This document shows positions 45,162-48,543 of a stretch of 64,000 nt of DNA, piece after piece. A program made the position numbers and the translations under genes. Below the pieces are notes generated by a model. That model was not told the origin of the DNA. It did not search any database and saw only the letters and a program-made list of their open reading frames with translations. The DNA is from Brumimicrobium salinarum. Lineage in GTDB: Bacteria; Bacteroidota; Bacteroidia; Flavobacteriales_D; Crocinitomicaceae. Every line of letters begins with the position of its first letter. The stretch's first letter is position 1. The stretch lies in assembly GCF_002844555.1 (NCBI RefSeq), contig NZ_PJNI01000016.1:1-64000 (forward strand), given 5' to 3'.

Positions 45162-45325
45162 AGTTTGTGATTTAATACACTAAATCTAATAATTTTTGTC
45201 GTATCAAGTTCTTTTTAACAAATGAATTTTTTTTAAACAACAAAAATTTAATTACTTTAGACATTAATTGAGTTGAGGTGTAACTTTTACCCTCCTTAAA
45301 TTGTTTTACTGTTAAACACGCGTTT

Positions 45326-45808
45326 TTGAATCGAAGAGAATACAATATAGCTGTCAAACTACATGCTTCCAATTTATATGGATATGTGTTTGGGTTCCTC
45401 AGAAATAGTGAGGACACACAGGATATTGTACAAGACGTTTTTGAAAAATTGTGGAAAAATAGAAAGAAAGTAGAAGTTGAAAAATGCAAAGCTTGGATGT
45501 TTAGAACTGGGCATAACGCATTAATTAATTTCTCGAAAAGGAAAAATCGAACAGTTTACAACACTGAATTAGTTCCCGAAAAATCGAAAATCGACAACCG
45601 ATTTGAAACTCAGGAAATAATAGATTTAGCCCTTTCCCTTCTTCCTCCCACTCAAAAAAGTATTGTTCTGCTCAGAGATTTGGAAGGATATTCTTACAAT
45701 GAAATATCAGAGATTTTAGATTTATCTGATAGTCAAGTGAAGGTTTATCTTTACCGGGCGCGAAAAAAAATTAAAAAACAGTTAGGCGATTTAATATTAA
45801 CTCAATGA
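45326..45808 (+). CDS. ECF-type RNA polymerase sigma factor
   Basis: This 160-residue two-domain sigma factor has region 2 with EDTQDIVQDVFEKLWKN (about 31-47) and region 4 with YNEISEILDLSDSQVKVYLYRARKKIKK (helix-turn-helix). The start is TTG, chosen because the family N-terminus begins there. The gene overlaps the next ORF by four bases (ATGA), so a signalling partner is translationally coupled to it. This partner is the membrane-anchored barrel fusion, as expected for an anti-sigma pair. The regulon is unknown. Confidence 0.9.
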   Translation: MNRREYNIAVKLHASNLYGYVFGFLRNSEDTQDIVQDVFEKLWKNRKKVEVEKCKAWMFRTGHNALINFSKRKNRTVYNTELVPEKSKIDNRFETQEIIDLALSLLPPTQKSIVLLRDLEGYSYNEISEILDLSDSQVKVYLYRARKKIKKQLGDLILTQ

Positions 45809-47505
45809 GCAGACCTTCTTTTGAAAATATAGATCAATGGCTTTTTGAATACACAGAAGGAAATCTTTCTGTGGAGCAAGAAACGCAATTAATGGATTTT
45901 ATTCGCTTAAATCCAGAGGTCGTTTCTGATCTAAAAGCATGGAATCAAGCCAAAGTGAAACCGCTTGATACATCTGGTTTTTCTGCTGCAGGATTAATGC
46001 GTCCCACGCCTTTCTTTATGCGTCCAGTAACCTTAATCGCATTAGGTGGTATTATATTGATGCTTTCTTTAGTTGGACTAGAATTTTATCCTGTTACTCC
46101 CCAATATTCGAAATCGGAAATTGATATTGATCAAATAACAACAAATGAAACAGATTTCGTAACACCAAAGTTTACCACTAAAAACAAAAAGAACATTAAG
46201 CCCATCATACAAAAGAGAAAAGTAAATGATTTCTCTAAGTCAATTCAGTCTAGGTCAGTTCAGAAAAACGATAATCGAGCTATTGAAACCGATTTCAATA
46301 ATTTAGCTGCTCAAGGTGAATTGAAAATAGTCGACCAAACAAGTGAAAAAGATCGCCTTGAAATAGTGAAGAACACTGAAAAAACAGTAGGCGATATTTC
46401 CACAGCTCTTACAACCAACATCAACGCCCCTGATTTGAATAAAATTAAAGACTACTTGAGTGGAAAAACTGACATAGAAAGTAATGATGTAGCTGAAGAA
46501 CGCTCCCAAAAGGTAAAAGTCATTTCAACAAAAGGAAGTTTTAAAAAGTCAATAAAAAGTACTTTAAGAAAAATAAAGCGAATGGCAAATCAACCAGTTG
46601 CTTTGAGAAACACAAAGAACCCGAATTTCCATGCCCCCATGATGAATGGTTTTGCTGCTAATAGTGCAATGGTCGGTTCTGCACCTGGTAATAGAATTCA
46701 AAACACTACACGTCTGCAATGGTATGAACAAAAAAATGCACAATTAAAGAATGCCATTTCATGGGATGGTTATGTATATGGATTAAGAGGAGGTTTAGGA
46801 ATAGATGCGAGTTTTAACACTTACAATAAAAACGATATTAACAATTATCAAGTCGCAATAACCTATTCTCCAAAGTTTTCAATATCTTCAAAAGTTTCAT
46901 TTGAACCAGCGCTTAGATTCAAAATGGGCGTGATTAATTTAGATACAGAATCCGACTTAATTTCTTCAAGAATTGAATTAAATAGACACCAACTAATTCC
47001 CCTTTTCGAAGATAAAAATCAAGTAAATGGTAATCAACTTTGGTACAGAGATATTGGACTTGGATTTATGCTCAATACCGAATGGTTTTACCTTGGATTC
47101 GAAGCTGATAATTTAGGGAGACACAATAACAATTTTTATTCAAGTGACTTAAGTAAAAACTACAAAAGTAATATCCATTACACGGCTGTATTTGGAACCG
47201 AATATCAATTTTTCAACCGAGATATACGAATTAGTGGATATGGTCTATATCAAAACAATGGTTACCTAAATGAATTATGGTTGGGTGGAAATGCACAGTT
47301 TAATTGGTTGCAATTTGGTGCAGGAATTAATACACAAGCCGACGTTGGCGTATCGTTGGGGACCATATTTAAGCAATTTTCAATTCATTATAATTTAGAT
47401 TATTTACAAAGTCAGTTAATGGAAAAGAAGTTATTATCACACCAAGTCTCAATCAAACTTATGCTAAAACCGAGTCGCTTAACATCTAAATTTTTAAACT
47501 TATAG
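45805..47505 (+). CDS. Anti-sigma-like N-terminus fused to PorP-like outer-membrane barrel
   Basis: This is a 566-residue protein of unusual layout. Residues about 1-65 are a short acidic helical segment (ENIDQWLFEYTEGNLSVEQE) like Bacteroidota anti-sigma N-termini. One membrane helix follows at about 74-94 (TLIALGGIILMLSLVGLEF). Residues about 95-300 are a Lys/Asn/Gln-rich linker with no fold seen. Residues about 310-566 look like the PorP/SprF barrel (YGLRGGLGIDASFNTYN, WLQFGAGINTQADVGVSLGT). There is no signal peptide. A classical zinc-finger anti-sigma motif is absent. Coupling to the sigma factor favours an anti-sigma role. Confidence 0.7.
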   Translation: MSRPSFENIDQWLFEYTEGNLSVEQETQLMDFIRLNPEVVSDLKAWNQAKVKPLDTSGFSAAGLMRPTPFFMRPVTLIALGGIILMLSLVGLEFYPVTPQYSKSEIDIDQITTNETDFVTPKFTTKNKKNIKPIIQKRKVNDFSKSIQSRSVQKNDNRAIETDFNNLAAQGELKIVDQTSEKDRLEIVKNTEKTVGDISTALTTNINAPDLNKIKDYLSGKTDIESNDVAEERSQKVKVISTKGSFKKSIKSTLRKIKRMANQPVALRNTKNPNFHAPMMNGFAANSAMVGSAPGNRIQNTTRLQWYEQKNAQLKNAISWDGYVYGLRGGLGIDASFNTYNKNDINNYQVAITYSPKFSISSKVSFEPALRFKMGVINLDTESDLISSRIELNRHQLIPLFEDKNQVNGNQLWYRDIGLGFMLNTEWFYLGFEADNLGRHNNNFYSSDLSKNYKSNIHYTAVFGTEYQFFNRDIRISGYGLYQNNGYLNELWLGGNAQFNWLQFGAGINTQADVGVSLGTIFKQFSIHYNLDYLQSQLMEKKLLSHQVSIKLMLKPSRLTSKFLNL

Positions 47506-47521
47506 AAAGGAGAGAGTTATT

Positions 47522-48484
47522 ATGAAAAAATTATTGTTGTTTGTATTTTCAGTTCTATTACTCAGCGAGGTTTACGCTCAAGACCCGCAGTTTTCGCAGT
47601 TCTATGCCAATCCAATATATTTGAATCCGGCTTTTGCTGGAAGTCATGGTTGTCCAAGATTTGCTGTTAACTATAGAAATCAATGGCCTGCGCTTTCTGG
47701 AACTTTTGTCACTTATTCTGCATCTTATGATCAATATTTGAAAAGTATTTCGGGAGGAATTGGTGTGATTGCAACGCATGATCAGCAAGGTAAAGGTACC
47801 ATTAACCATACTACTTTGAGCTTGATTTACAATTATCATTTAAAAGTAAACAGAAAGTTTACGATGATGTTTGCCGGTAAAGCAACATGGAACCAAAAGT
47901 TTCTTGATTGGGACAAACTGACATTTGGAGATATGATTGACCCAAGAAGAGGGTTTATTTATGGAACAAATGATGTACCTCGTGGAGGTTCTCGTGGTTT
48001 CTTTGATGCATCTGCAGGAATGGTAGGATTTACAGAAAATTTCTTTTTCGGCGTTTCAGGACATCACTTAAACATGCCCAACGAATCGATGATTAATGGA
48101 GATGATAGTCCAATGCCTATTCGTATAACAGGACACATGGGAGCGAAAATTGGACTTGGTGGAAAATCACAATACTCTAATGAAACTTCTATCATGCCCA
48201 ACCTTATCTATCAATACCAACAAGGTTTTATGGAGTTAATGCTAGGAACATACGTTAAATATGGCGCATTTACAGCTGGAGCATGGTTTAGATCAAAAGA
48301 TGCATTCATCCTTTCACTAGGAGTAAATACAGGAACGATAAAAGTAGGATACAGTTATGATGTAACCGTATCAAAATTAAATAATGGTGTTTCAGGAGGT
48401 TCTCACGAAGTTTCGCTTGGATTTGACTTAAATTGTAAAACAAGACAACCAAGTTTTAGAACTGTTTCGTGTCCTTCTTTTTAA
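47522..48484 (+). CDS. PorP/SprF family T9SS outer-membrane protein
   Basis: This 320-residue protein has a signal peptide at about 1-20 and the family hallmark DPQFSQFYANPIYLNPAFAG right after it. A beta-barrel of about 14 strands ends in DLNCKTRQPSF and a final Phe. PorP/SprF proteins receive T9SS substrates or anchor surface adhesins. It follows the fusion gene by 16 bases, so all three genes form one operon. The partner adhesin is not in the window. Confidence 0.9.
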   Translation: MKKLLLFVFSVLLLSEVYAQDPQFSQFYANPIYLNPAFAGSHGCPRFAVNYRNQWPALSGTFVTYSASYDQYLKSISGGIGVIATHDQQGKGTINHTTLSLIYNYHLKVNRKFTMMFAGKATWNQKFLDWDKLTFGDMIDPRRGFIYGTNDVPRGGSRGFFDASAGMVGFTENFFFGVSGHHLNMPNESMINGDDSPMPIRITGHMGAKIGLGGKSQYSNETSIMPNLIYQYQQGFMELMLGTYVKYGAFTAGAWFRSKDAFILSLGVNTGTIKVGYSYDVTVSKLNNGVSGGSHEVSLGFDLNCKTRQPSFRTVSCPSF

Positions 48485-48543
48485 GGTGTTTTTATAGAGG
48501 AAGTAGTTTTAATGGTTTAACAACTACTTTATTTATTTGTTGT

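Follow-up and report, generated by a model that had tools for sequence, protein, structure and literature searches.

The marine bacterium Brumimicrobium salinarum carries an operon that encodes an extracytoplasmic function (ECF) sigma factor, a fused protein of 566 residues and a PorP protein. The window analyzed here is the 64,000-nucleotide stretch at positions 1–64,000 of the forward strand of contig NZ_PJNI01000016.1 (assembly GCF_002844555.1). Sequence and structure prediction support for the fused protein a single polypeptide made of a cytoplasmic anti-sigma-type domain, an inner-membrane helix, a long linker and an outer-membrane barrel of the PorP type. On balance we favor a reading in which this barrel is a pseudo-PorP that serves as sensor of a trans-envelope sigma circuit of the dual membrane-spanning anti-sigma (Dma) type, which would control a dedicated second copy of the PorP of the type IX secretion system (T9SS). 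The locus is real, widely conserved and unusually testable.

Operon and Conservation

A preliminary description of the window had reported an ECF sigma gene, a fused open reading frame (ORF) and a PorP gene in succession, and the ORFs were found as described there. The start of the fused ORF overlaps the end of the sigma gene by the four bases ATGA, and the free PorP gene begins 16 bases 3′ of the fused ORF (Table 1). For the sigma factor the best NCBIfam model, NF058625, gave 117.6 of 130 bits, which is below its cut-off. Its TTG start codon (45326–45328), a rare start, is oddly conserved, being kept in 78/78 aligned sequences, and may hold the level of the sigma factor low.

A scan with the N-terminal motif, by which fused proteins without the motif would be missed, found 141 relatives. 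The locus counts refer to the best 80 of these 141, whose record titles are mostly those of Crocinitomicaceae and other Flavobacteriales, with Brumimicrobium as the closest named relatives. The sigma gene lies 5′ of the fused ORF in 79/79 testable loci (one is cut by the contig end) and a separate PorP 3′ of it in 70/70 (ten are cut by the contig end), while the four-base overlap is present in 71 of 79 loci. In a search of 59 related genomes, 56 gave some match. Full fused ORFs were obtained at 27 of 30 loci from related genomes, all 27 with the sigma gene 5′; PorP or its start follows in 24 of them and a contig edge in three. The 30-locus and 80-locus sets share species and are not independent. 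The conserved order of sigma gene, fused ORF and PorP confirms the earlier observation as a whole. Merger of two genes by an assembly error, or chance, is ruled out, the fused ORF being whole in 27/30 loci and present in the best 80 of 141 (two are cut).

The Fused Protein

The fused protein was modeled by AlphaFold2 on a 76-sequence alignment (A2) that leaves out L036 (unknown residue), L059 (near copy of L058), L085 (uncertain start) as well as L095 and L100 (cut). In the model of the whole protein, N-terminal helices occupy residues 9–18, 23–35 and 39–49 with a predicted local distance difference test (pLDDT) score of 92–98 in 10-residue blocks. Residues 1–66 modeled alone gave a mean pLDDT of 84.8 and a three-helix domain, to which a short fourth helix (61–64) is only weakly added. 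With 10 acidic against 5 basic residues among the first 55, the N-terminus is acidic and helical, as had been proposed from the sequence. Comparison of residues 1–66 with 350,542 chains by Foldseek returned 11 matches, nine of which are anti-sigma domains (ChrR, RsiW, RslA, MucA) in sigma-factor complexes, at a sequence identity of 12–22% and with no match significant by itself. No Pfam or NCBIfam anti-sigma model matches the fused protein of the window. In one relative, L202, zf-HC2 matches below the cut-off. A three-helix bundle like that of the class I anti-sigma domains RsiW, ChrR, RslA and MucA described in PMC7406223 is suggested by the Foldseek list; the differences are the low identity, the shortness of the fourth helix and the membrane helix that leads to a barrel.

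A profile of the domain (A3) matches 150 of 295 genomes of the bacterial class. In the 30 loci returned, an ECF sigma gene stands directly 5′ of the domain in 29, and the remaining one is at a contig edge. This linkage holds whatever C-terminus follows, a PorP barrel or none; a PorP barrel in the same ORF was found in 11/30 loci and a second copy of the domain without PorP barrel in 7/30. Fold and gene linkage speak for residues 1–66 binding and holding the neighboring ECF sigma factor, a role we infer for them.

A single long helix follows at residues 72–94, close to the membrane helix that had been placed at about 74–94. The unfolded-looking linker of the preliminary description is likewise reproduced, with pLDDT below 50 across most of residues 99–236 and a basic helix at 246–261. 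Mean conservation is 0.20 in the linker versus 0.54 in the barrel. The latter is modeled with 14 long strands (counted from the strand listing) spanning residues 297–553, most blocks having pLDDT above 90, and the match of PF11751 (PorP_SprF) to residues 272–551 (E 3.9e-18, 66.4 bits, cut-off 22.3) agrees with the C-terminal PorP/SprF-like barrel that had been suggested. PorP_SprF was the only Pfam model above cut-off, and no TonB-receptor or plug domain was found by Pfam. TIGR03519 of NCBIfam gave E 2.4e-19, with 69.9 of 90.55 bits. Because this cut-off is not reached, we regard the region as a PorP-type barrel domain and not as a T9SS PorP carrier.

The best matches of the modeled barrel in the PDB are chains F of 8gl6 (Z 22.7, 3.0 Å, 255 residues) and 6h3i (Z 22.3, 2.9 Å, 249 residues), both T9SS translocon entries, with which FadL (2r88, Z 22.2) ties. 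Chain F is presumably PorV in both. PorV and PorP-like proteins are described as 14-strand barrels of the FadL family (PMC9143113). Among the 17 PF11751 matches in its own genome, the fused barrel is closest to the operon PorP and the core PorP copy discussed below. A sequence search of the PDB with the full fused-protein profile gave nine matches with E 0.078–0.99, none of them meaningful. The fused protein has no signal peptide of its own; the N-terminal membrane helix and the anti-sigma-type domain stand in its place.

The C-termini of the fused and the free protein differ. Of 48 free PorP sequences, 47 have at least two cysteines among their C-terminal 25 residues, and the other is a fragment. 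Among 76 fused proteins, three have a cysteine within the last 30 residues, the protein of the window having none there, and 58 are wholly without cysteine. According to PMC12635249, SprF of Flavobacterium johnsoniae is disulfide-bonded through its Cys-X-Cys tail to GldK, a component of the gliding track. The cysteine spacing in the free PorP tail is wider than in this motif; by analogy the tail may nevertheless play an SprF-like role in track coupling. Overall, the fused barrel shares with the PorP/SprF carriers of type B cargo the PF11751 barrel, the 14 strands and the FadL-type fold (as described in PMC9143113, PMC12618676 and PMC12635249). It differs from them by the missing signal peptide, the added membrane helix and anti-sigma domain, and the nearly always missing C-terminal cysteines.

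Table 1. Features of the operon and its surroundings, in positions of the window.
Feature	Position	Strand	Basis or remark
ECF-like promoter element TGTAAC-N16-TTGTTTTA	45279..45308	+	Upstream of sigma gene; conserved position
ECF sigma factor gene, 160 aa, TTG start	45326..45808	+	Pfam Sigma70_r2 and Sigma70_r4_2 above cut-off
Trans-envelope fusion ORF, 566 aa	45805..47505	+	Pfam, AlphaFold2, conserved in relatives
Fused protein, residues 1–66, helical, predicted class I anti-sigma-type fold	45805..46002	+	AlphaFold2, Foldseek
Fused protein, residues 72–94, single predicted membrane helix	46018..46086	+	Sequence and model
Fused protein, residues 95–262, linker	46087..46590	+	Low pLDDT, low conservation
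Fused protein, residues 272–551, PorP/SprF-type 14-strand barrel without cysteine tail	46618..47457	+	PF11751, fold matches
Free PorP gene, 320 aa, signal peptide-like start	47522..48484	+	PF11751, E 1.8e-57
Two-cysteine C-terminal tail of free PorP (C305, C317)	48425..48481	+	Cysteine counts in relatives
Possible terminator hairpin 3′ of PorP, weak	48494..48536	+	Fold −11.2 kcal/mol, z −1.62

Two PorP Copies

A second, core copy of PorP is encoded elsewhere in the same genome (G000; G000–G007 denote the eight Brumimicrobium genomes). It lies at G000:C76 between porU and gldJ, with porV beyond porU, and at this locus porV-porU/porP-gldJ the models for PorU, PorV and GldJ are above their cut-offs. 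The mature proteins of operon and core PorP are 99.7% identical. With this near-identical copy, the T9SS link of the operon is supported beyond what the preliminary description had offered. From G000 to G007, the identities of the mature pair within one genome are 0.997, 1.0, 0.997, 1.0, 0.907, 0.99, 0.997 and 0.997; seven of the eight genomes thus hold two mature PorPs that are 99–100% identical, and the operon PorPs of G001–G007 are 0.82–0.93 identical to that of G000. At the nucleotide level the pair is 0.81–1.00 identical within a genome versus 0.71–0.875 between species (G001–G007). Over 120 bases on either side of the mature part, a stretch that takes in the signal peptides, the likeness is 25–37%. 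The two copies of G002 differ by 110 synonymous and 1 non-synonymous codon differences; between species, 111 and 10 were counted for G002 versus G005, and 116 and 35 for G001 versus G002. That the pair is alike within a species yet changes between species is unusual and can be checked.

In a tree of 32 PorPs the copies pair by genome in G000, G001, G003, G004, G006, G007, G013 and G019, and, less well supported, in G014. The tree leaves G002 and G005 without resolution, and the copies of G037 are unpaired and group by locus with those of G048. Judged from these sequences, the second PorP copy is old. The likeness of the copies in several lineages is due either to exchange between the genes or to selection for one protein sequence.

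Close PorPs (E 1e-60 or better) were counted in 28 members of the family. Eighteen have the fused gene, of which 12 show two copies, two show one and four show none; in the zero-copy genomes the contig ends at porP (G008, G009, G011) or inside the fused ORF (G024). The second copy in G016 is not that of the operon, which is cut. Of the ten members that lack the fused gene, eight carry a single copy; the other two also carry a second one, which is diverged in G017 and holds four stops in G021. Genomes that lack the sigma/fused pair thus retain remnants of a second porP, at G021:C28:87844-88794 (the copy with four stops) and, in diverged form, at L237 and L239 (G017 and G048).

A contig end is met less than 6 kb downstream in 47 of the 80 loci, for 34 of the 47 within less than 1 kb. 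The listing of contig ends holds 50 loci, but three of them (L080, L081 and L096) stop only because the flank limit is reached. Such breaks of draft-genome contigs (L031–L110) inside or just before porP are as expected of a repeated gene.

Proposed Circuit

The sequences and predictions themselves give the order of the genes, the domains and their folds, the conserved promoter, the pairing of PorP copies and the difference in the tails. The circuit we propose adds sigma binding, autoregulation and its sign, a ligand and a release step, for which we favor the following scheme. On the cytoplasmic side residues 1–66 would hold on to the ECF sigma factor; the helix at 72–94 would pass through the inner membrane, the linker would span the periplasm, and the PorP/SprF-homologous barrel would sit in the outer membrane. 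There it could act as a pseudo-carrier that keeps the PorP fold and lacks the cysteine tail by which the real PorP may be tied to the GldK/GldJ track. The trigger would be what PorP normally handles, either T9SS cargo of type B or a partner that PorP shortage leaves unoccupied. On this signal the anti-sigma end would release the sigma factor, which would then transcribe its own operon from TGTAAC-N16-TTGTTTTA and thereby yield more core-type PorP. The barrel is closest to the operon and core PorPs, has no tail, and is encoded in an operon that makes the same PorP. The simplest circuit would be a pseudo-carrier reporting on PorP shortage or cargo load.

PorP-like proteins are reported to bind type B cargo (PMC9143113), and PorP was found together with PorE and PorK (PMC12618676). 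We advance more tentatively the proposal that the tail-less pseudo-PorP takes up type B cargo or a track partner when PorP is short, so that the freed sigma factor makes the core-identical second PorP. If true, a secretion carrier would have been turned into its own gauge, and one polypeptide, gauge and switch at once, would match the supply of a single T9SS part to the demand for it. It would also provide the first known class of ligand for dual-membrane anti-sigma factors. The signal becomes testable since the barrel family has known partners (type B cargo domains, GldK/PorK, PorE) and since the operon carries the very carrier that the barrel resembles.

In signaling of the FecI/FecR/FecA type, an outer-membrane barrel signals to an ECF sigma factor via an anti-sigma protein, with a separate TonB-dependent transducer. 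The path from barrel through anti-sigma to ECF sigma factor proposed here is similar, with the difference that barrel and anti-sigma are one polypeptide and that Pfam finds no TonB-receptor or plug domain.

The closest known design is that of Dma in Bacteroides thetaiotaomicron, where a protein in both membranes holds an ECF sigma factor (PMC13088901). As described there, Dma1–3, which act with the Das sigma factors, consist of an N-terminal anti-sigma domain, one membrane helix, a long disordered tether and a C-terminal barrel, and their genes adjoin that of an ECF sigma factor; Dma3 carries the sigma domain itself. By this described layout the fused protein can be likened to Dma1–3, as it shows the same four parts and the ECF sigma neighbor; it differs by its PorP/SprF carrier barrel and by an operon with a second core T9SS PorP. 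The preliminary description had known of no anti-sigma factor fused to a PorP-like barrel. Searches of openly licensed PMC papers likewise met no work in which PorP/SprF and an anti-sigma factor are brought together, whereas the general design is already known as Dma. A PorP-type sensor barrel on the dual-membrane anti-sigma design is apparently new, as it was not seen in the papers searched.

The same likeness gives rise to the main rival explanation, an ordinary Dma-type sensor of the general state of the outer membrane (barrel assembly, lipid balance, vesiculation or outside glycan), for which descent from PorP would be incidental and the signal unrelated to T9SS. Its layout would be that of Dma1 and Dma2, whose loss raises vesiculation, and for Dma2 sensing of glycan is proposed by the authors (PMC13088901). 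In addition, the same N-terminal domain is joined to a PF13568 barrel in L187 and L197. A general sensor would, however, give no reason to expect a neighboring PorP that is almost the same as the core T9SS protein, nor a fused barrel so close to that core PorP, and we consider it rather unlikely.

Promoter and Regulon

The element TGTAAC-N16-TTGTTTTA was found 5′ of the sigma gene in 78/78 regions (the window and 77 loci), with a spacing of 16 in 77 and of 15 in one; L045, whose contig lacks a sigma gene, L072, which contains Ns, and L093, in which the contig start cuts the upstream part, are left out of this count. In its second half 8/8 bases agree in 63 regions and 7/8 in 15. The exact element occurs once in the genome of B. 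salinarum, 5′ of the operon. When up to two mismatches are allowed in this genome, 115 and 113 sites are obtained, fewer than the 167 and 175 of the reversed control. Ten one-mismatch sites in the genome were inspected, and none was seen 5′ of a T9SS gene.

An ECF sigma factor is connected with T9SS genes in the SigP/PorXY system of Porphyromonas gingivalis (PMC7712824). A wider T9SS regulator of this kind, by which the sigma factor would switch on many T9SS and gliding genes with PorP as one target among them, is an improbable alternative here, though two observations can be cited for it. The core porP of G000–G007 (L211–L218) carries upstream a conserved ECF-like element, read by eye as TGTAAC-N16-CGTAAAA, and PMC9723704 reports that T9SS genes of Flavobacterium psychrophilum have an ECF motif containing a CGT box in front of them. 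The second half of the core porP element is, however, another than that of the operon, and therefore operon and core porP are probably under separate control; the single exact site, the near-matches below the reversed control and the one-mismatch sites, none before a T9SS gene, also speak against a wide regulon. The likeness to SigP control suggested in the preliminary description could accordingly not be upheld: in contrast to SigP/PorXY, no promoter link to further T9SS genes was found, and a linked trans-envelope anti-sigma-type protein is present instead.

Several observations weigh against the proposed pseudo-PorP circuit. In other genera the operon element also precedes other genes and there is not private to the operon. 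In 40 related genomes 41 exact sites were counted, the operons' own included, compared with 22 for the control, and of 20 fetched regions, 18 of which lie around sites, there are several in which, judged by eye, the site is followed by a gene for a secreted or outer-membrane-like protein or by another ECF sigma gene. The PorP pair is not near-identical everywhere, its identity being 0.907 in G004, 0.686 in G014 and 0.628 in G037. A second porP is kept next to an acyl-CoA ligase-like gene without sigma or fused gene in G017 and in G048, the latter of another family; such a ligase-like gene likewise adjoins the operon of the window. Taken singly, the anti-sigma fold matches are insignificant (E 2.1 to 9.0 for the nine, Z at most 5.6), and the evidence for this fold is the agreement across the Foldseek list and no one score. 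Finally, distance-matrix co-evolution of the sigma factor with residues 1–60 over 74 gene pairs gave r 0.61, which fell to a partial r of 0.13 after accounting for the barrel and so lends no support.

That the fused protein is no anti-sigma factor at all, being an inner-membrane-anchored PorP carrier that merely shares an operon with a sigma gene, would agree with the missing Pfam and NCBIfam anti-sigma matches and the co-evolution result, yet is very improbable in view of the Foldseek list and of the position of the domain directly behind an ECF sigma gene in 29/30 loci (one cut), also where no PorP barrel follows.

Related Loci

The N-terminal domain was also met in other arrangements. L187:62-1753 and L197:1492-3027, from other families of the class, combine it with a long linker and the PF13568 barrel, which is the described Dma layout. 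A split form is found at L201:1489-3084 (G149:C16), where the sigma gene is followed by a protein of 225 aa with the anti-sigma-type domain and then by a separate PorP_SprF protein; the same genome holds, on a different contig, an ORF of 559 aa with this domain. L111–L115 are related sigma/anti-sigma pairs in which the anti-sigma-type domain is repeated and no barrel is fused to it, and a small separate secreted or outer-membrane-like protein lies 3′ in L111, L113 and L115.

A further PorP of the B. salinarum genome, at L116:1993-3456 (G000:C9), is extended by a long charged stretch and has an additional C-terminal domain not named by Pfam. It sits behind a large ORF resembling a surface protein.

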